Assembly (NCBI GenBank): GCA_026986115.1
Contig: JALSPG010000063.1
Coordinates: 1-41,768 of the forward strand
DNA from: Thermodesulfobacteriales bacterium
GTDB lineage: Bacteria; Desulfobacterota; Thermodesulfobacteria; Thermodesulfobacteriales; Thermodesulfatatoraceae
Length of the DNA: 41,768 nt
Direction of reading: 5' to 3'
The notes beneath the pieces are model-generated. The model ran no database searches and was not told the DNA's origin. It worked only from the letters and a program-made list of their open reading frames with translations. Made by a program: the position numbers and the translations under genes. Below are positions 1,896-12,304 of this stretch, in pieces (position 1 is the stretch's first letter; each line of letters opens with the position of its first letter).

Positions 1896-3221
1896 ATGGC
1901 AAGTACTATGGAATTTTTGAATATTCTTGTAGTGGAGGACGAAAAGGTCCATCGCGAGCTTTTGCGGAAGACTCTGGAAGAGGAGGGCTATCGCGTCTCG
2001 AGCGTTCCCAGTGCGGAGAAGGCCCTTCCTGTGTTGAACCAAGAAGAAATAGATGTAGCCATTTTAGACGTGCGTCTTCCGGGAATGAGTGGTTTGGAAC
2101 TCCTGAAACGTATCAAGGAAAAGAGCCCGGAAACGGAAGTCCTCATCATTACGGCTTTTGGGGAAATCGAGGACGCCGTTTCTGCGATCAAGGCCGGTGC
2201 CTTTCACTACCTGGTGAAACCCTACGAGCCGGAAGTGCTTCTCAATCTGGTGCGAAGATGTGGAGAGCTGGTAAAGCTTAAAAAACCCCGTAAAGACGGG
2301 CCTTTGGTCTATCGTTCCCGGGTTATGAAAGACCTCCTGCGGCAAGCCGAGACCTTTGCCCGCACCGAGGCCCCGGTTCTCATCTTGGGAGAGTCGGGGG
2401 TGGGAAAAGAACTTTTAGCCCGCTATCTCCACGAAAAAAGTGGCCGCCAGGGGCGGTTTGTGGCTGTAAACTGTGCGGCCCTGCCGGAGCAACTCTTTGA
2501 GGCCGAACTTTTCGGTTACGAGCGTGGGGCCTTTACCGGAGCCGGAAGCGGGAAACCCGGGCTGATCGAGGAAGCCCAGGACGGCACCCTTTTTCTTGAC
2601 GAAATCGGAGAGATGCCTCTGGTTCTCCAGAGCAAACTCTTGCGGTTCCTCCAGGAAGGTGAATTTCGCCGTCTGGGGAGCAACCGAACTCTCCAAAGCA
2701 ACGCCCGGATTATAACGGCCACCAATGAAGACCTCAGGGAGGCGGTCTCGCAACAGAAATTTAGGGAGGATCTATATTTTCGTCTTAACGTCTTGGTGCT
2801 CAAGATTCCGCCTCTCCGGGAACGCCAAGAAGATATTCCCGAGCTTGTGGCCTATTTCCTGCATAAGTTCAACCGCAAATACCGGAAAGAAGTAAGGATT
2901 ACCCCCGAGGCCATGGAAAAACTGCTCCGTTACCCTTTTCCGGGGAACGTGAGAGAACTTGAGAACCTCATTCATCGGGCGGTATTGGTAAGTGAACAGG
3001 AAATCACTCCCGAAAGCCTCAGACTGGAGACCAAGGACACGTCGAGGATGGATCTACGTCTTTCTTCGGGAAAAACCTTGCCCGAGATCCTAGCCGAAGT
3101 AGAAAAACACCTCCTCAAGGAGGCTCTGGAACAAACCGGATATGTGCAAACCAGGGCTGCTGCACTCTTAGGGATAGACGAGAAATCTTTGCGATACAAA
3201 CGTAAAAAATATGGCCTCTAG
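1896..3221 (+). CDS. Sigma-54-dependent response regulator (REC-AAA+-Fis), NtrC family
   Basis: REC domain VVEDEKVH...VAILDVRLPGMSG; AAA+ motifs GESGVGKE, GAFTGA, FLDEIGEM; C-terminal Fis HTH TRAAALLGIDEKSLRYKRKKYGL. Start set to the ATG at 1896 after AGAGGGG; the track's upstream extension is unlikely. Confidence 0.95.
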   Translation: MASTMEFLNILVVEDEKVHRELLRKTLEEEGYRVSSVPSAEKALPVLNQEEIDVAILDVRLPGMSGLELLKRIKEKSPETEVLIITAFGEIEDAVSAIKAGAFHYLVKPYEPEVLLNLVRRCGELVKLKKPRKDGPLVYRSRVMKDLLRQAETFARTEAPVLILGESGVGKELLARYLHEKSGRQGRFVAVNCAALPEQLFEAELFGYERGAFTGAGSGKPGLIEEAQDGTLFLDEIGEMPLVLQSKLLRFLQEGEFRRLGSNRTLQSNARIITATNEDLREAVSQQKFREDLYFRLNVLVLKIPPLRERQEDIPELVAYFLHKFNRKYRKEVRITPEAMEKLLRYPFPGNVRELENLIHRAVLVSEQEITPESLRLETKDTSRMDLRLSSGKTLPEILAEVEKHLLKEALEQTGYVQTRAAALLGIDEKSLRYKRKKYGL

Positions 3222-4356
3222 ACGCTATCTGCTTTTCTTTTTTGTCGTTTTGGAGATCTTGGGACTTGGTTTCCTTTATAACTTTTATCGTTTGAGGAAC
3301 GAGTGGGAGAGTTTTTTTCGTCTGACTCTCGAAGAAGAAAAACAGAGGGTACATTCGGCTCTCAAGGCCACTCTGGCTGCCGGGGGAGATCCGGTGGAAA
3401 CCCTTTCCGAATACCTTGAAGGCTCGCGGCTTCTCAAAGGAGCCGCTCTCATTCTTTCCGGAAGGACCATCATTGTTCCCGGCTCAGACATCCCTCCTCA
3501 AAGTTTGATTTATACCCTAGAGCTAGATCCCTTTGTATTTCAGCTCTATTTTTCAGGGAAAAGCTTCTACGAAATCAAACGTCATCTTTATGCCGAACTG
3601 GCCCTGTGGCTGCTGCTGAATCTTACGGGGTTAGGGGTAACTTTATGGCTTCTTAGGAGTTATTACCGAAGCAGACTGGCTCTGACCCAGGAGAGGGCTG
3701 AAGCCGAACGCTTAAAAAGCATCTCTCTGGCCATCGCTTCCGTGCTCCATGAAGTCAAAAACGCCCTGAACAACTTTAACTTTGCGGTCTTTCGTCTGAA
3801 AAAGAAGACCTCGTCCGAAGAGGTGAGGCTTCTTGAGGAGGAAATAAGACGCCTTACCCTTTATCTGGAAGAGGTCTCCGATCTGAGAAAACCTCTGATA
3901 CTAAACCGCGTTGAGGTCAGCATAGCTGATCTCCTCCGAGAAGTCCTCGGGGAATTTTCCGAAAGGATAAAGGATCTTGGCGTAGAAGTGGAGATCGACG
4001 TTCAACCCGCAAGGCTTTTCGTGGACCCGGAGAGAATGCGCGTGGTCTTGCGCAATGTGGTCCGCAACGCCCTAGAGGCTTTGGCGGAGGTGTCTCCTCC
4101 CCGGAGGCTTAGAGTTAGTGGCGAGGTCAAAGATAAGTTTTACGAAATAGAAGTAGCCGATTCCGCAGGTCTCCTGCCAAAGGCCACCGAGCTTTTCAAG
4201 CCTTATAAGAGTCAGAAGCCCGGGGGCTTTGGCCTCGGTCTCTTTAACGTCAAGCGCATCGTCGAGGCCCACGGTGGTGAGGTCCAAGCTGAAGTGCGCT
4301 CCGGCTGGACCGTTTTTATCCTCCGACTTCCCCTCGGAAAACCTTCCGAGGAATAA
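3211..4356 (+). CDS. Membrane-bound sensor histidine kinase
   Basis: Two TM segments, HEVKNALNNF H-box, NALEAL N-box, GGFGLGLFNVKRIVEAHGG. Overlaps the regulator stop. Confidence 0.93.
   Translation: MASRRYLLFFFVVLEILGLGFLYNFYRLRNEWESFFRLTLEEEKQRVHSALKATLAAGGDPVETLSEYLEGSRLLKGAALILSGRTIIVPGSDIPPQSLIYTLELDPFVFQLYFSGKSFYEIKRHLYAELALWLLLNLTGLGVTLWLLRSYYRSRLALTQERAEAERLKSISLAIASVLHEVKNALNNFNFAVFRLKKKTSSEEVRLLEEEIRRLTLYLEEVSDLRKPLILNRVEVSIADLLREVLGEFSERIKDLGVEVEIDVQPARLFVDPERMRVVLRNVVRNALEALAEVSPPRRLRVSGEVKDKFYEIEVADSAGLLPKATELFKPYKSQKPGGFGLGLFNVKRIVEAHGGEVQAEVRSGWTVFILRLPLGKPSEE
4333..4350. promoter_or_regulatory. Candidate bEBP upstream activating site, copy 1
   Basis: CTCGGAA-AACC-TTCCGAG, imperfect 18-bp palindrome at the 3' end of the kinase gene, 32 bp centre-to-centre from copy 2. 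Confidence 0.5.
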
Positions 4357-4511: not shown

Positions 4512-4527
4512 TGGCATATCCTTTGCT
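4512..4527 (+). promoter_or_regulatory. Sigma-54 (-24/-12) promoter
   Basis: TGGCATATCCTTTGCT: GG and GC with correct spacing versus TGGCACG-N4-TTGCW. Followed by an AAGGAGGT RBS at about 4553-4560 and the ATG at 4568. Confidence 0.85.
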
Positions 4528-4567: not shown

Positions 4568-5269
4568 ATGAACAAAGGAAAAATTAAATCCCTGGCTCTG
4601 TTTTTCCTTCTTCTGTGGTTTGGAGTGGCTATGGGAAAGACGCCGCGGATTCTCATGCAAGAGGTGGAGGGAACGGTAAAAGAGATTCAGGTGGAAAAGG
4701 CTTCCCCTAAAGCCAAGTTCGGTTTTGTAACGGCGGTGCTCGCTACGGATAAGGAAGAGATGAAGGTGCGGCTCTATCCCGAATGGTGGAAGCTCAAGCC
4801 TCCCTTTACCGTAGGGAGCCGGATAAAGGTCAAGGGTTGGGTTCCTCCACGCACGGCATTTACCGGCCAGCCGGTTTTAGTAGCGGCGGAGATCAAAAAT
4901 CTAGATACTGGAGAAGTCCTCGTTCTTCGCGAAGGACCAGGCAAGCCCCGGTGGAGATTCGGCATGAAAGCTCAGATCTTTTCCGGAAAAATCGTGTCCC
5001 GAAAGATCCGTCCCGGCATAGGTCGCCCGCAAATCAAATGGTTGGTTATCGAGGTGAGGGATAAGGAGGGTAGGGTAGGCCATTTTAGGATTTCTCCTCT
5101 TTGGCTGAACGATTATCCCGAGCTTAAAACTGGAGAGAAGGTCAAGATCTGGGCTTATCGGCCTCCTTTCTGGGCGGCACGAGGTATCAAGGAATACATG
5201 GCCTGTCGGATAATGCTTATGGAGCGGGATCAGACCATAGATCTTAGAAAGTGTCCTCAAAAAAGTTGA
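4568..5269 (+). CDS. Secreted protein, possibly two OB-like beta domains, unknown function
   Basis: Signal peptide LALFFLLLWFGVAMG; two similar halves (EVEGTVKEI...GSRIKVKGWVPP and FSGKIVSRK...GEKVKIWAYRPP). Confidence 0.7.
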   Translation: MNKGKIKSLALFFLLLWFGVAMGKTPRILMQEVEGTVKEIQVEKASPKAKFGFVTAVLATDKEEMKVRLYPEWWKLKPPFTVGSRIKVKGWVPPRTAFTGQPVLVAAEIKNLDTGEVLVLREGPGKPRWRFGMKAQIFSGKIVSRKIRPGIGRPQIKWLVIEVRDKEGRVGHFRISPLWLNDYPELKTGEKVKIWAYRPPFWAARGIKEYMACRIMLMERDQTIDLRKCPQKS

Positions 5270-5282
5270 AAGAGTTATGTAG

Positions 5283-6089
5283 ATGAGGAGCTGGGTTAGT
5301 CTTTTTCTTTTCTATTCTGCGGGGCTGGTGATTCTGACTGGACTGGTGCTCTATATCATGCCCCCTGGTAGTGTGGCCTACTGGACAGACTGGCGTCTTC
5401 TGGGCCTGGGAAAGGATCAGTGGGAGTCCATTCACATCCTTTTTGGAATCCTGATGATGGTTCTCGCTATCTGGCATCTTTATCTCAACTGGAGACCCTT
5501 TAAACGCTACTTAGGTTCGACCAAGGTCCCAAGCAAACCCTTCGTTTCGCTGACTTTGCTAACGGTGATCCTCACGGCTTTGACGATAAAGGATCTTCCT
5601 CCGGCAAGCTGGCTGGTAAGCCTTCAAGCTCACTTCAAAAACTCTTGGCCGCAACCGGCCGTACCTCCTCCTATACCTCATACCGAACTCCTTCCTCTTG
5701 AGGCTTTGGTCAAAAGAGAAAATCTTTCCCTGGAAGAAACCCTACGGTTTCTGGAAGCCAAAGGATTTAAAATTCCTTCCTCTCGGATGACGCTCAAAGA
5801 GCTTGCCCGCTTGAATAAAAGCTCTCCGGCTGATCTTTATGCTCTGATAATCCGTCATAAACATTCTTCCAGCATTCGCCCAGGAAAAGGAACCGCTATC
5901 TCGCATCCTAGCCGAAGAACCTTGAAGGAGGTTTGTGCGTTTTACGGTTTAGACCGGAGGACTTGCGAAGAGATCCTCAAAGCCCATGGAGTTACTCCGG
6001 AATGGGATCGTCCTCTGAAAGAATGGACCTTCTCCTACGGGATTACCCCTTGGGATGTTGTAGAATGGCTTCAGGAACACCAGAAGTAA
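5283..6089 (+). CDS. DUF4405-like membrane protein with C-terminal repeated helical motif
   Basis: TM helices with WESIHILFGILMMVLAIWHLYLNWRPFKRYL typical of DUF4405; soluble C-terminus with three LKE-type repeats. Confidence 0.7.
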   Translation: MRSWVSLFLFYSAGLVILTGLVLYIMPPGSVAYWTDWRLLGLGKDQWESIHILFGILMMVLAIWHLYLNWRPFKRYLGSTKVPSKPFVSLTLLTVILTALTIKDLPPASWLVSLQAHFKNSWPQPAVPPPIPHTELLPLEALVKRENLSLEETLRFLEAKGFKIPSSRMTLKELARLNKSSPADLYALIIRHKHSSSIRPGKGTAISHPSRRTLKEVCAFYGLDRRTCEEILKAHGVTPEWDRPLKEWTFSYGITPWDVVEWLQEHQK

Positions 6090-6101
6090 GGGGGGCCTGA
6101 A

Positions 6102-6350
6102 ATGAAGATTTCACGCTTGGCTATGAATGATGAAGGTTTTATTTTCGATCCGGAAACAGGTAATAGCTACACCGTAAACGAAACCGGCCTTTTCATCCTG
6201 CGGAAGCTCAAAGAAGGGTTATCTCCTGCAGAAATTAGCATGGCGCTCTCAGAGGAATATAGGGTTTCATTTGAGGAGGCCGAACGAGACGTAGAGGAAT
6301 TTCTGGAGGATCTTAAGAGATATGGGCTCTGGAGGAAAAGTCATGATTAA
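6102..6350 (+). CDS. PqqD-like / RiPP recognition element protein
   Basis: 82 aa, FIFDPETGNSYTVNETGLFILRKLKEGLSPAEISMALSEEYRVSFEEAERDVEEFLEDLKRYGLW; PqqD-type winged-helix pattern. Confidence 0.8.
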   Translation: MKISRLAMNDEGFIFDPETGNSYTVNETGLFILRKLKEGLSPAEISMALSEEYRVSFEEAERDVEEFLEDLKRYGLWRKSHD

Positions 6351-7371
6351 GGTAGCGGTCTCTGGGATAAACGCCGTGGACAATCCGGGGCCGGGACTGG
6401 GCATCATCAAGGGACTACGGGAGGGAAAGACTCCGGTATCCATCGTGGGGCTGGCCTACGACGCCATGGAACCGGGCGTTTACCTTACGGAACTCATAGA
6501 TCGGGCCTATCTCATGCCCTACCCCTCCGAGGGCGAGGAACCCTTCCTGAATCGCTTCCTTTACATCAAGGAACGGGAGGGCCTGGAGGTAGTCATCCCG
6601 ACTCTCGACGCGGAGCTTCCCCTTTTCATAGATCTGGCTCCGCAACTAGCCTCCTACGGCCTCAAGACCTTTCTTCCCACTCGGGAACAGTTCCGACTGC
6701 GGGCAAAAGACCGTCTGCCAGGGGTGGCTGAGGCTATGGGTATAAAGATTCCAACTACCTTGTCGGTCTCTTCCTACGAGGAACTGGGCCGTGCTCTTTC
6801 CGAACTTCGGTTTCCGGTGATGGTCAAGGGACTCTTTTACAAAGCCCTGCGGGCCTATACCGAGGCCGAGGCCAGGCAGCACTTCCAGACCATCGCCGCG
6901 GAATGGGGCTACCCCGTGATCCTTCAAGAGGTGGTGGAGGGCGAGGAAATGAATGTGGTGGGCGTGGGAGACGGGGAGGGCGGCCACTTCGGTCTCCTGG
7001 CCATCAAAAAGCTCTGGATCACCTCCCTCGGGAAAATCTGGACTGGGGTTACGGTAACCCATCCGGGACTTCTAACCGCCGCGGAGGAATTCGTGCGACA
7101 CTTTCGCTGGCGAGGAGCCTTCGAGCTCGAGACCATCGTTTCCGGAGAGGACATTTACCTCATCGAGATCAATCCCCGCTTTCCGGCCTGGGTGTACTTC
7201 GCCGTGGGAGTGGGGATAAACCTTCCGGAAAGACTGCTCCGGGCCGCCCTGGGGCAGGAACCCGAGAGAGACTGGGAATATCCCGCGGGAAAGCTCTACA
7301 TCCGCTTCACCGACGATCTGGTAACGGATCTAGAGATATTTCAGCACATGGTCACCAGGGGGGAAAGATGA
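6343..7371 (+). CDS. ATP-grasp superfamily ligase (CarB-like)
   Basis: MIKVAVSGINAVDNPGPGLGIIKGL; FPVMVKG; VILQEVVEGEEMNV; IYLIEINPRFPAW. Overlaps the PqqD-like gene. Confidence 0.88.
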   Translation: MIKVAVSGINAVDNPGPGLGIIKGLREGKTPVSIVGLAYDAMEPGVYLTELIDRAYLMPYPSEGEEPFLNRFLYIKEREGLEVVIPTLDAELPLFIDLAPQLASYGLKTFLPTREQFRLRAKDRLPGVAEAMGIKIPTTLSVSSYEELGRALSELRFPVMVKGLFYKALRAYTEAEARQHFQTIAAEWGYPVILQEVVEGEEMNVVGVGDGEGGHFGLLAIKKLWITSLGKIWTGVTVTHPGLLTAAEEFVRHFRWRGAFELETIVSGEDIYLIEINPRFPAWVYFAVGVGINLPERLLRAALGQEPERDWEYPAGKLYIRFTDDLVTDLEIFQHMVTRGER

Positions 7372-8708
7372 AAAGAACTTATCAGAAACCCACCATCGTC
7401 AAACTCCAGGTCGGTCTCCTACGGGACAAAAAAAGCAGTCTTTCCCGGCTCCTGCGACGGGAGATCGACGGAGTGCCGGTAAGAGATCTGGTGGAACGAT
7501 TCGGGTCTCCGCTCTTCGTCTTTTCCGAAAGAAGACTGCGTCAGCAGTTTCGGTACCTGAAAAGACTCTTCGAGGGATACTATCCCCGGGTGGAATTCAG
7601 CTGGTCTTACAAGACCAACTATCTGGACGCCATCTGCCGCATCTTTCACCAGGAGGGGGCCAGCGCGGAGGTGGTTTCGGACTTCGAATACGAAAAAGCT
7701 CGAAGGCTGGGGATGTCCGGAGACCGGATCGTTTTCAACGGACCTTACAAGCCCAAAGAAATCCTGCGCAAAGCGGTGGAGGAGGGAGCCCGCATAAATG
7801 CGGATTCCCTGGACGAGATCCTGGATCTGGAGGAAATCGCCCGGGAGACGGAGAAAAAGATCCGCATCGGTCTCCGGGTGAACATGGACACCGGGATTTA
7901 TCCCCGATGGGATCGGTTCGGTTTCAACCTGGAGTCCGGCGAGGTGCTCAATGTGGCCCGGAGGATCGCCGCCGGAGGCCGGCTCGAGGTGGTGGGCCTT
8001 CACTGTCATCAGGGCACCTTCATCCTGGAGCCGGAGGCTTACGGTCGGGCCGCGGAAAAGCTGGTGCGTCTCGCCCGCAGGCTGGAGGAAGAGTTCGGCT
8101 GGACCATCGAGTATCTGGATCTGGGCGGGGGTTTTCCCTCCCGCAACCGTCTAAAGGGACTCTACCTTCCTCCGGAGGTGGCGGTGCCACCGCTTTCGGA
8201 ATACGCGGAGCGGATCGGCCGGGCTCTTCTGGCCTCTCTCCCCCCGGGAGACTACCCCCTCCTGATCCTGGAGACCGGAAGGGCCCTGGTGGACGAGGCC
8301 GGCTTTCTCATCACCACCGTGCGGGTCTGCAAGCGTCTTCCGGATGGCCGGCGGGCCTATGTGCTCGACGCGGGAGTGAACCTGCTCTTCACCTCCTTCT
8401 GGTACCACTTCCGGGTGGAAATAGAGAAAGAGGTGGCCGGTCCCCCGGAGCCCTGCGTGCTCTACGGCCCCCTGTGCATGAACATAGATGTGGTGGAGGA
8501 AAACGCCCTACTCCCTCCCCTTTCCCGGGGCACCAGGCTGATCCTGTCCCCAGTGGGAGCCTACAATGTGACCCAGTGGATGCAGTTCATCACCTACCGA
8601 CCCCGGGTGGTCCTCGTTACCGAGGAGGGAAGGGTTGAGGTGATCCGCGAGGCCGAAACCCTGGAGGACATCGTAGCCCGGGAAAGGATACCCGAACACC
8701 TGCGATGA
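7368..8708 (+). CDS. Fold-type III PLP-dependent decarboxylase (diaminopimelate/ornithine decarboxylase-like)
   Basis: GSPLFVFSERRLRQQFR, YSWSYKTNY-type Lys region (FSWSYKTNYLDAI), VVGLHCHQGTF, EYLDLGGGFPS, ILETGRALV. Start at 7368 overlaps the ATP-grasp stop (ATGA). Confidence 0.9.
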   Translation: MKRTYQKPTIVKLQVGLLRDKKSSLSRLLRREIDGVPVRDLVERFGSPLFVFSERRLRQQFRYLKRLFEGYYPRVEFSWSYKTNYLDAICRIFHQEGASAEVVSDFEYEKARRLGMSGDRIVFNGPYKPKEILRKAVEEGARINADSLDEILDLEEIARETEKKIRIGLRVNMDTGIYPRWDRFGFNLESGEVLNVARRIAAGGRLEVVGLHCHQGTFILEPEAYGRAAEKLVRLARRLEEEFGWTIEYLDLGGGFPSRNRLKGLYLPPEVAVPPLSEYAERIGRALLASLPPGDYPLLILETGRALVDEAGFLITTVRVCKRLPDGRRAYVLDAGVNLLFTSFWYHFRVEIEKEVAGPPEPCVLYGPLCMNIDVVEENALLPPLSRGTRLILSPVGAYNVTQWMQFITYRPRVVLVTEEGRVEVIREAETLEDIVARERIPEHLR

Positions 8709-10798
8709 GAGACTTAAGGCCCGTCGCAAACTCCATCCTGAACAGTTACTCCGGGGTGCTCTTTTTCTCCCGCCCGGCCGGAGGACTGGCCATCCTGCTT
8801 TTCACCCTGGTCCTCAATCCCAATCTGGGGCTTTCCGCCCTGGTCTGCCTGCTCTCCGCCTACCTCTGCGCCCGCCTCCTGGGCCTTAAGGAAGACTTTC
8901 TGCGACTGGACTTCTACATATACAACCCCCTGCTGGTGGGGCTCTCCATAGGCTACTTCTTCCGGCTCGACCTCCTGAGTCTCCTCTTCCTGGTGCTCAT
9001 GGGTGTCTTCACCTTCTTTCTGACCTACGGCCTTTCCTCGGCCTTCTCTTACTACCTCAGACTTCCTGTGCTGAGCCTTCCCTTCGTGATCGGAAGTCTC
9101 ATCGCCACCCTGGCCTCCTACCACTACTCCAACCTGTTCGTAAAGGCCCTTTACGCCCGCAAACTCTTCCTTTTCACCTCCCTTCCCCTGTGGCTTGACG
9201 GCTTCCTTAGGGCCCTGGGAGCGGTGTTTTTCATGCCCCATCCCCTGGTGGGACTGGGACTCTTTCTGGTGCTTCTTCTGGCCTCTCGTATCCTGGCCCT
9301 TCTCGCTCTGACGGGGTATCTGGCCGGAAGCCTCCTGGTCTACCTCTTCACCGGATCCTCCGCGGAGGCCTTTTCCAACCTCGCCCACTTCAACTTTATC
9401 CTCATCGCCATGGCCCTGGGCGGGGTCTTCCTGATTCCCTCACCCAGGAGCTACCTCCTGGCGCTCATCGCCTCCGCCATGGCCGTCCCCCTCACCGAGG
9501 CCTCCCGGGCCTTCTGGGAAAGGTTCGGTCTTCCGGCCTTTGCCCTGCCCTTCAATCTAACCACCCTGCTGGTGCTGTACGCGCTGGGGGTCTCGGGATA
9601 CCGTCGTCTCACCGGTTATTATCGTGGAACCCCGGAAAGCACCCTGGATCACTACCTGACCTGGGAGAAACGGTTTCCCTCCACGGCCTGGGAAGTGGAG
9701 CTTCCGGTGAGCGGTCGCTGGACGGTGTGGCAGGGGCCTGACGGACAGTTCACCCACAAGGGGCCCTGGCGATACGCCCTCGATTTCGTGATTACCGACG
9801 AGGAGGGACGCACCCACGGCGGAGACGGAACGCGCCTTGAGGACTACTACGCCTACCGCAAGCCCGTTCTCTCCCCGGTGAGCGGGCGCGTGGTGGAGGT
9901 GGTGGACGGTCTCCCGGACGAGCCTCCGGGCTCGGCCAACCGCGAACAGCCCTGGGGCAACTATGTGGTCATCCACGACCAGCGGGGTTTTTACGCGGTG
10001 CTGGCCCACCTGAGCCCGGGCACCGTAAAGGTAAAGAAGGGGGACTGGGTGGTGAAGGGAGCCCTCGTAGGGCTTTGCGGAAGTTCCGGCTATTCTCCGG
10101 AACCGCATCTCCACCTCCACCTTCAAACCGGGCCGGAGCTGGGGTCTCCCACCATTCCCTTTCTCTTCAGCGGTTATCTCAGGAACGGAGAGTTTCACGC
10201 CCTTTCCCTTCCCGCCGAAGGGGAAACGGTGGAACCCGCCCTCCCGGAAAAACGGCTCAAACAGAGCCTCAACCTTCTTCTGGGGCAAAAATTCACCTAC
10301 GAGGTGCAGGGGGAGGGAGGCTCCGGGGAAATCCTCCACCTGGAGGTAAAGATGGCCCCTGACGGGACCTTTTACCTCACCGACGGAAAGGCGCGTCTTT
10401 ACTTCGCCCAGCGGGGGGCGGCCTTCTGTTTCCTGAATTACGAGGGGACGAACCGTTCCCCCCTGCGCTGGTTCTTCCTGGCCGCCCCCAGGATCCCCCT
10501 GAACCTCCGCCCGGGGATCTCCTGGTCCGACCACCTTCCGCTGGAAATCCTGCTGCCTCCCCTCAAAAAAGGGCTGTATCTCTTCCTGATTTCCTTCTGG
10601 CCCTCTTTTTTGCGTCTGGAGGCCCGCTATCAGGCCCTGGGAAGATTTGACTTCCGCGGAAGGATTATCTTTAGTGATTACGAGGTGGAAACCGCCGTAA
10701 AAATCCATCCCCTGGCGGGGTTTGAGGAAGTGGTTATCCGGAGAAAAGGACGAACCCTGAGACTTAGACGGAGGGAAAACGATGAGGAGAATGCTTAG
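8705..10798 (+). CDS. Urea-transporter-like membrane domain fused to M23 (LytM) peptidase domain
   Basis: N-terminus SGVLFFSRPAGGLAILLFTLVLNPNLGL...YNPLLVGLSIGYFF; C-terminal half WRYALDFVITDEEG...SPVSGRVVEVVDG...WGNYVVIHDQRGFYAVLAHLSPGTVKVKKGDWV...GLCGSSGYSPEPHLHLHLQ. Confidence 0.88.
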   Translation: MRDLRPVANSILNSYSGVLFFSRPAGGLAILLFTLVLNPNLGLSALVCLLSAYLCARLLGLKEDFLRLDFYIYNPLLVGLSIGYFFRLDLLSLLFLVLMGVFTFFLTYGLSSAFSYYLRLPVLSLPFVIGSLIATLASYHYSNLFVKALYARKLFLFTSLPLWLDGFLRALGAVFFMPHPLVGLGLFLVLLLASRILALLALTGYLAGSLLVYLFTGSSAEAFSNLAHFNFILIAMALGGVFLIPSPRSYLLALIASAMAVPLTEASRAFWERFGLPAFALPFNLTTLLVLYALGVSGYRRLTGYYRGTPESTLDHYLTWEKRFPSTAWEVELPVSGRWTVWQGPDGQFTHKGPWRYALDFVITDEEGRTHGGDGTRLEDYYAYRKPVLSPVSGRVVEVVDGLPDEPPGSANREQPWGNYVVIHDQRGFYAVLAHLSPGTVKVKKGDWVVKGALVGLCGSSGYSPEPHLHLHLQTGPELGSPTIPFLFSGYLRNGEFHALSLPAEGETVEPALPEKRLKQSLNLLLGQKFTYEVQGEGGSGEILHLEVKMAPDGTFYLTDGKARLYFAQRGAAFCFLNYEGTNRSPLRWFFLAAPRIPLNLRPGISWSDHLPLEILLPPLKKGLYLFLISFWPSFLRLEARYQALGRFDFRGRIIFSDYEVETAVKIHPLAGFEEVVIRRKGRTLRLRRRENDEENA

Positions 10799-11648
10799 AA
10801 CGGTTCTCACGGTATCGGCCCTGGGACTTTTCCTGGCCGGAGGAACCCCTGCGGGAACCCTCAAAAAGTACATGGCCCTGTACGGGACCTATCTCAACTA
10901 CGGCAACTCTCGTTTCAAGGAGGACGGGTACGCCCTCACCGCTTACGGGAGTTTCGGAGACGGCCTTCACCACGGGGTGGAAGCCGCGGTCTCTCAGCTT
11001 CACCTGAACTACGACTCCGGCTATAACGATCTGGATCAGACCGACCTAACCCTGGCCTACACCAACACCGGAAGCCTCCATCCCAACCTCTCCTTGCGGG
11101 TGGGGGGCCACTACATCTCCAGCGACGACGACCTCACCGACGACGGAAAGATCGTTTTCGGAGACCTCACCTATCTCGTGCCCTATCGCTGGAATGTGGG
11201 TCTTGAGGTGGCCTACTCGGATTATCACCGGGGGGTGGATGTGCTCCAGTTCTCTCCGCACGCGGGCTACTTCCTGAAGCTGGGCGAGCGCTCTCTCTAT
11301 CTCGAAGCCCGGGGCTACTACATAAACCTGGACGAAAACGAAAAACTGGGCCTTTCCATGGAAAACTACTACTCCCTGGAGCTTTCGGCCAGTTGCACCC
11401 GGGGACCTTTAAGCGTCAAGCTTTCCGGGTGGGCGGGGCAGCAGGTCTTTGCGGTGAAACGGGCCGGGTTCGTGGTTTACAACCTCACCGAAAAGTATCG
11501 GGGCGGAGTCACCGGAGAGGTAACCTATCGTTATCGGAAAAAGTATGTCCTGGGTCTTACGGCAAGCTGGAACACCTATAAGGAGATCGAGTCCGAGAAG
11601 GCTGTGAACCAGAGCGTGCTCACCGCCTTTTTCGGTTTTAACTTTTAA
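10782..11648 (+). CDS. Outer-membrane beta-barrel protein
   Basis: Signal peptide, alternating amphipathic strands rich in Tyr/Gly, terminal aromatic FFGFNF. Confidence 0.8.
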   Translation: MRRMLRTVLTVSALGLFLAGGTPAGTLKKYMALYGTYLNYGNSRFKEDGYALTAYGSFGDGLHHGVEAAVSQLHLNYDSGYNDLDQTDLTLAYTNTGSLHPNLSLRVGGHYISSDDDLTDDGKIVFGDLTYLVPYRWNVGLEVAYSDYHRGVDVLQFSPHAGYFLKLGERSLYLEARGYYINLDENEKLGLSMENYYSLELSASCTRGPLSVKLSGWAGQQVFAVKRAGFVVYNLTEKYRGGVTGEVTYRYRKKYVLGLTASWNTYKEIESEKAVNQSVLTAFFGFNF

Positions 11649-11650
11649 CC

Positions 11651-12304
11651 GTGGCCCGCAGAGGGATACAAGTGAGATCTCTGGTCCGGGGGGGTTTTTT
11701 TCTCTTGGGGCTGCTGGTGTGCTGGAGTGCCCCGCTTAAGGCCCTGGACTACGAGGGCATAAAGAAGGCCTACTACGAGTCCTATCGTCTGGAGCGGGAG
11801 GGGCGCTATGCCCGGGCCCGAGAGGCCCTGCGTCCGGTCTACGAGACCTTTCCCCGGGCCTACACGGTTAACCTCCGTCTGGGCTGGCTTTACTACCTGG
11901 AGGGACGCTATCGAAACGCCATAGAGCATTACCAGATCGCCGCGGCCGCGGCGCCGCAGGCGGTGGAACCCCTCCTGGGGCTGAGTCTTCCCTATCTGGC
12001 CCGTAAGGACTGGCGAAGGGTGGAGGAACTGATGTACCGCGTCCTCAAGATCGACTACTACAATTATTACGGCAACCTGCGCCTGGCCCGTGCCCTCAGG
12101 GAGGAGAAAAAATACCGCCAGGCCGAGGTGGTGTGCCGGAAGATGCTGACCCTTTATCCCACCGATGTGGCCTTCCTCACCGAGCTGGCCCTGACCCTAG
12201 AACTTTCCGGTTGTCACAAAGAGGCCCTAGCTCTTTTTCGAGATATTTTGATTCTTGATCCTCGGAATTCGGTAGCCAAAGAATATCTTTCCGAAAAGCA
12301 CTAA
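11651..12304 (+). CDS. TPR-repeat protein
   Basis: GTG start; signal-like N-terminus; TPR patterns such as YARAREALRPVYETFPRAYTVNLRLGWLYYLEGRYRNAIEHYQIA. Confidence 0.85.
   Translation: MARRGIQVRSLVRGGFFLLGLLVCWSAPLKALDYEGIKKAYYESYRLEREGRYARAREALRPVYETFPRAYTVNLRLGWLYYLEGRYRNAIEHYQIAAAAAPQAVEPLLGLSLPYLARKDWRRVEELMYRVLKIDYYNYYGNLRLARALREEKKYRQAEVVCRKMLTLYPTDVAFLTELALTLELSGCHKEALALFRDILILDPRNSVAKEYLSEKH

Follow-up and report, generated by a model that had tools for sequence, protein, structure and literature searches.

We identified a set of six adjacent genes that almost certainly constitutes one functional unit, in which a PqqD-type RRE probably reads a leader-like tag on an enzyme rather than a peptide precursor. 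In order, the core comprises the genes for the PqqD-type RRE, an ATP-grasp ligase, a PLP decarboxylase, a fusion of a UT-type channel with an M23 metallopeptidase domain (UT-M23), a putative outer-membrane barrel, and a TPR protein. Tentatively, we picture the cassette as a widespread diderm machine in which the RRE would hold the enzyme tag to form a metabolon, passing an amine product to a dedicated UT-family channel with a cytoplasmic M23 hydrolase. Every one of the proteins falls into a known superfamily; what is new is the module as a whole.

A preliminary description of the window (i.e., the whole analyzed stretch of 41,768 nucleotides, contig JALSPG010000063.1 of a Thermodesulfobacteriales bacterium) had claimed eight tightly packed genes at 4568-12304, and all eight open reading frames were found where it had placed them. 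Their treatment as a single system holds for the six-gene core, which recurs, but not for the OB-fold and DUF4405 genes, which are additions in some lineages only (present in a subset of loci, both among relatives and across phyla). The DUF4405 protein consists of a b561-like membrane part followed by a C-terminal region. The ATGA-type overlaps described previously were observed between the ATP-grasp and decarboxylase genes (7368) and between the decarboxylase and UT-M23 genes (8705), but the other two junctions differ, with an overlap of 8 nt for PqqD/ATP-grasp (ATG at 6343; stop at 6348-6350) and of 17 nt for UT-M23/barrel (ATG at 10782; stop at 10796-10798). The features of the locus are as follows.

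1896..3221, + strand: NtrC-family sigma-54 response regulator (Pfam Response_reg, Sigma54_activat, and HTH_8)
3211..4356, + strand: membrane sensor histidine kinase, ZraS-like (HATPase_c, 1.7e-14; best NCBIfam match ZraS, below cut-off)
4512..4527, + strand: predicted sigma-54 (-24/-12) promoter, TGGCATATCCTTTGCT (sole match in the window on either strand)
4568..5269, + strand: exported OB-fold-like protein, accessory (signal-peptide-like N terminus; weak, sub-threshold PF01336)
5283..6089, + strand: DUF4405 membrane protein, cytochrome b561-like, accessory (PF14358, 7.7e-18)
6102..6350, + strand: PqqD-type RRE, core (PF05402, 6e-18)
6343..7371, + strand: ATP-grasp ligase, CPS-like, core (PF15632/PF02655, about 1e-7)
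7368..8708, + strand: AR-fold PLP decarboxylase, subfamily unassigned, core (PF02784, 6e-33; PF00278)
7380..7433, + strand: YxKPxI tag at the N terminus of the decarboxylase (residues 5-22), putative ligand of the RRE (Y..P.[ILVMF] in 87/87 homologues)
8705..10798, + strand: UT-type channel, M23 metallopeptidase, and an unassigned C-terminal region, core (PF03253 at residues 9-293, 5e-62; PF01551 at residues 385-475, 1e-12)
10782..11648, + strand: putative outer-membrane beta-barrel, core (signal-peptide-like N terminus; no Pfam family for the window protein)
11651..12304, + strand: exported TPR protein, core (TPR families in Pfam)

Among 60 relatives, UT-M23 gave 17 matches (including the window's own genome), every one of them accompanied by the decarboxylase as a protein distinct from the LysA-like homologue. 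The six-gene order is kept in the relatives wherever contigs reach, as well as across phyla, and the arrangement is therefore far beyond chance. Within the phylum, an identical set of 17 of 395 genomes contains the decarboxylase and this PqqD. These genomes are akin and hence do not represent independent events, but the distribution is patchy within orders; UT-M23 is present in 16 of these 17 genomes and in no others. The one genome without a UT-M23 match (G059) has a contig that stops inside the decarboxylase, after TPR, PqqD, and two ATP-grasp genes. The latter (L035, 1560-4767) are tandem paralogues flanked by PqqD and the decarboxylase; they share about 35% identity with the ATP-grasp ligase of the window and possibly represent a two-ligation variant.

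Scanning 84,980 genomes led to the identification of at least >550 relatives, which sets a lower bound on prevalence. The best 80 of these >550 loci are spread over about 22 phyla, including Thermodesulfobacteriota, Aquificota, Verrucomicrobiota, Planctomycetota, Cyanobacteriota, giant sulfur bacteria, and others, all of which we take to be diderm. Although these 80 loci were fetched by the decarboxylase alone, genes adjacent to it, counted where the contig reaches far enough, encode PqqD in 66/69, the ATP-grasp ligase in 68/71, UT-M23 in 59/61, the TPR protein in 44/51, and the barrel in 37/58 loci. In five genomes whose loci are split, the missing PqqD lies elsewhere in the genome in 5/5 cases (next to an ATP-grasp gene in 4/5) and UT-M23 in 4/5. 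A second PqqD/ATP-grasp pair with no decarboxylase beside it occurs in G112 (L150, 242-1529). Only two-component regulators recur in the flanks, the other neighbors being random or lineage bound, and no plasmid-borne copies were detected at E<=1e-60. An anti-phage defence system was considered and rejected, with no PADLOC match for any of the eight proteins. Thus, examination of other genomes showed that the genes do co-occur, either linked or elsewhere in the genome, so that this possible refutation of the preliminary description failed, and an undescribed, co-inherited gene set that includes an RRE, a ligase, and a decarboxylase is supported. No description of the set was found in the open-licence literature; a survey of RREs does not mention a decarboxylase, a urea transporter, or M23 (PMC12710340).

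The solved chains nearest to the RRE are the lasso RREs TfuB1 (6jx3; 8.8e-9) and TbiB1 (5v1u), and a lasso PqqD model matched 38/38 scanned RRE members, with the window protein falling below the cut-off of the model. In LppB structures, the leader Tyr is held by D70, the Pro lies against F74, the next hydrophobic leader residue is held by M78 and L83, and N33 fixes the kink (PMC13381572). When mapped by spacing from D70, this pocket corresponds to D63, F67, L71, L76, and N26 of the window RRE, which are conserved in 71/71, 70/71, 70/71, 66/71, and 59/71 distinct sequences, respectively. The type of motif read by lasso-type RREs is found at the N terminus of the decarboxylase, where Y-x-x-P-x-[ILVMF], typically Y-x-K-P-x-I, is present in all 87 homologues. 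This tag is N-terminal of the LysA-alignable region, and <1% of neighboring ORFs carry the motif close to their start. Like the lasso RREs (TfuB1/FusB1 and TbiB1) and LppB, the cassette RRE is a small stand-alone protein with the PqqD fold and an Asp/Phe/hydrophobic pocket, which in those proteins reads YxxPx[LVIFA]. Unlike in lasso systems, the predicted ligand motif sits on a 446-residue enzyme: no stand-alone precursor peptide with a YxKP motif was found in any locus, no small ORF showed conservation across phyla, and no lasso B2 protease or asparagine-synthetase-like cyclase recurs as a neighbor in the loci. Given the invariant tag, the conserved pocket, the kinship with lasso RREs, and the lack of a precursor peptide, docking of the RRE on the enzyme is the simplest interpretation. 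The proposal of a RiPP-recognition-like protein is confirmed as to the PqqD-type RRE, but the searches revealed no RiPP precursor, and the predicted ligand is the decarboxylase tag.

The tag is usually followed, in most phyla, by GxMNKFG, a second conserved element that is not explained by pocket binding. This segment could be the core of a RiPP precursor built into the enzyme, in which PqqD would present the leader YEKPxI, the ATP-grasp ligase would modify GxMNKFG (as a carrier or crosslink), and M23 would later cut the tag. Such a scheme fits the lasso-leader-like tag and the short conserved stretch after it, the RRE and ATP-grasp combination, which is a RiPP pairing, and the plausibly cytoplasmic side of M23. 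A modified core would be expected to be the most conserved part, but NK, kept in 74/87 homologues, has disappeared from the window's own lineage (LLRDKKS, LREKKS) and from a few more, whereas the Tyr, Pro, and hydrophobic residues of the tag are retained in 87/87. This pattern argues against GxMNKFG as the modified core, and we consider a built-in precursor unlikely in comparison with docking of the RRE on the enzyme.

The ATP-grasp ligase, whose nearest solved structure is 2pn1, has intact metal-site residues, and E261, E263, E275, and N277 are invariant in 17 sequences. Likewise, the AR-fold catalytic set of the decarboxylase (K82, H212, GGG 253-255, R305, and C370) is invariant in 84 sequences. 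The nearest solved relative of this enzyme is the N-citrylornithine decarboxylase FigC (7kh2), and BtrK is also among the matches. According to a published comparison, the substrate is bound by acids in ODC, ADC, and CASDC and by an Arg in DAPDC, and citrate is contacted by FigC H357 or SbnH K347, with FigC M355 at the loop (PMC7857480). The cassette decarboxylase has neither the ODC/ADC/CASDC acids (ornithine, arginine, carboxyspermidine) nor the DAPDC Arg. Its specificity helix reads T342-x-x-W345-Y346 and its Cys loop C-M-N-I-D (M371 in 83/84, I373 in 80/84), in which M371 corresponds to FigC M355 and Ile replaces the citrate-contacting H357. Assignment as LysA was rejected (NCBIfam 224.7 versus a cut-off of 297.9; DAP-binding residues replaced), and most genomes searched also encode a distinct LysA-like homologue with about 31-35% identity. 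Assignment as FslC/FigC was rejected as well (203 versus a cut-off of 500; Ile at the H357 position in 80/84). Because FigC is the best solved match, BtrK is among the matches, and the specificity residues have changed, the substrate is likely to be a conjugated rather than a free amino acid.

In the butirosin pathway, BtrJ is the ATP-grasp ligase and BtrI the carrier. BtrK is the AR-fold PLP decarboxylase of that pathway and acts on a conjugated amino acid (PMC7857480). By analogy with BtrJ/BtrK, the adjoining ATP-grasp ligase would be a natural source of the conjugate, and ligation followed by decarboxylation is the order that we moderately favor. Unlike the butirosin system, with which the cassette would share these two steps, it has no acyl-carrier protein and contains instead an RRE, plus a dedicated channel, barrel, and TPR protein.

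The kinship with FigC also raises the possibility of a siderophore-like pathway akin to rhizoferrin or staphyloferrin, which would conjugate, decarboxylate, and export its product, with the barrel as a receptor. FigC/FslC (rhizoferrin) and SbnH resemble the cassette enzyme in having a Met beside the catalytic Cys and no diamine-binding acid, and the N-citrylornithine decarboxylase, its closest solved relative, has NGPYK and the Cys-Met loop in common with it. However, the His or Lys that holds citrate (FigC H357/SbnH K347) is Ile in 80/84 sequences, the cassette ligase is an ATP-grasp enzyme and not an NIS synthetase, and neither an NIS synthetase nor a TonB-dependent receptor is in the conserved set. 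A siderophore-like role is thus very improbable.

The membrane channel and peptidase of the preliminary description were both confirmed by Pfam (for the UT domain, PF03253 at 210 bits versus a cut-off of 25), but the peptidase more likely faces the cytoplasm than the periplasm. UT proteins have cytoplasmic termini. In the UT domain, K+R residues number 9.6 on the side of the N and C termini versus 3.5 on the opposite side, a bias seen in 57/57 sequences with hand-set, approximate loop borders. On the basis of this bias and the known orientation, the M23 domain is probably cytoplasmic, which would be unusual for an M23 peptidase. Its metal/catalytic residues H351, D360, H435, H468, and H470 are invariant in 57 sequences, as is C458 (57/57). 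These data bear on a cell-wall system, in which a periplasmic M23 would cut peptidoglycan and the cytosolic enzymes would modify the wall or its lipids with the help of the TPR protein and the barrel in placing the modification. M23 domains usually act on peptidoglycan, the five metal/catalytic positions are invariant, the phyla are diderm by general knowledge, and the kinase is nearest to ZraS-type envelope sensors; however, the charge bias argues for termini, and hence an M23 domain, in the cytoplasm, C458 is invariant, and the flanks contain no recurrent gene for wall synthesis. We therefore regard a cell-wall system as improbable.

The UT domain shares with the urea transporters (dvUT, UT-A/B) the family fold, both FN motifs, the Phe slots (F27/F190/F243), and Leu 84/247. 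It differs from them in the fused M23 and C-terminal regions and in the urea-binding ladder, which we take to be Q24, E187, and T130 of dvUT: across 57 sequences, Q24 is replaced by E/G, E187 by A, and T130 by S (one signature Thr, T130, was mapped). Urea is therefore an unlikely substrate. Since UT channels are passive, as is generally known, the sequence does not fix the direction of transport, and the same parts could serve the uptake and catabolism of an amide or urea-like compound that enters by the barrel and UT and is processed by M23 and the enzymes. Counting against uptake, ATP-grasp ligation is normally biosynthetic, the ladder residues are replaced, and no urease or amidase is in the conserved set; we give this route little credence. 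Export is favored by the barrel homologues, whose export signals and C-terminal F (in 31/34) fit an outer-membrane beta-barrel and which gave isolated weak OMP/porin Pfam matches, and by the TPR homologues, most of which have signal-peptide-like N termini. Together with the UT channel, these signals support the export-type layout proposed earlier, and we rate export through the UT channel and the barrel at about an even chance. The barrel is missing or unrecognised in about one third of loci, so that export through it is not universal. In L113 (3165-6419), UT-M23 and two TPR units are read through as a single frame of 1085 residues that contains a signal-like stretch internally, which is either a fusion or the result of a stop lost in the MAG.

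The suggestion of signal-induced expression is supported by a conserved sigma-54 promoter and an NtrC-type two-component pair. The site at 4512-4527, which stands before the OB-fold gene, was the only one found, versus 0.31 matches per strand of the window expected by shuffling. A corresponding site is present at -44 to -56 in 5/5 lineage loci with upstream DNA (i.e., the window, L022, L023, L026, and L036), and the NtrC-family regulator also adjoins the cassette in L023, L026, and L036. In 73 further loci, the DNA immediately preceding PqqD has no conserved sigma-54 site; sigma-54 regulation is therefore lineage specific.

The block from ATP-grasp to TPR (6343-12200) matches its counterpart in G023 (L020), a member of another family, at 97-99% identity along most of its extent, whereas PqqD is only about 64% identical at the DNA level and other shared regions about 66%. 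GC3 is 0.46 in PqqD but jumps to 0.70-0.76 across the block, and the GC content of the block is 60% versus 44-48% in the surrounding DNA. These patterns indicate that the block was recently exchanged by allelic transfer, with the border at PqqD/ATP-grasp and the resident PqqD left in place. Retention of PqqD across the exchange is consistent with a universal tag.

Our best overall explanation, which we hold to be evenly balanced, is that an RRE-scaffolded ligase-decarboxylase pair makes a conjugated amine that is exported via the channel and the barrel. In the cytoplasm, the ATP-grasp ligase would couple an amino acid to a partner molecule, and the decarboxylase would strip the amino-acid carboxylate from the conjugate to leave a small amine, with free DAP, Lys, Orn, and Arg not serving as substrates. 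PqqD would act as a docking adaptor: its groove would grip the YxKPxI tag and so link the enzyme to the ligase and perhaps also to the membrane. The product would pass the inner membrane via the UT-like channel, at whose cytoplasmic mouth M23 may hydrolyse or gate something, and cross the outer membrane via the barrel, aided in the periplasm by the TPR protein. In the window's lineage, the two-component system would switch the unit on via sigma-54. In this picture, the gene set and its co-inheritance, the tag, the RRE pocket, the changed specificity residues, and the sigma-54 site are computed results, and the binding, the order of the reactions, the side of M23, and the direction of transport are inferences. 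Synthesis and export of an amine-containing or amino-acid-modified product, as proposed previously, is supported with respect to ligase, decarboxylase, export-type layout, and regulation; the accompanying suggestion of envelope remodelling gained no direct support.

The presence in about 22 phyla of a six-gene unit whose function is undescribed points to a widely used metabolite that has so far escaped recognition. Should the RRE indeed read an enzyme tag, RREs would not be RiPP proteins only, genome-mining rules that take every RRE as a sign of a RiPP would need revision, and the leader motif would become a candidate for enzyme scaffolding.
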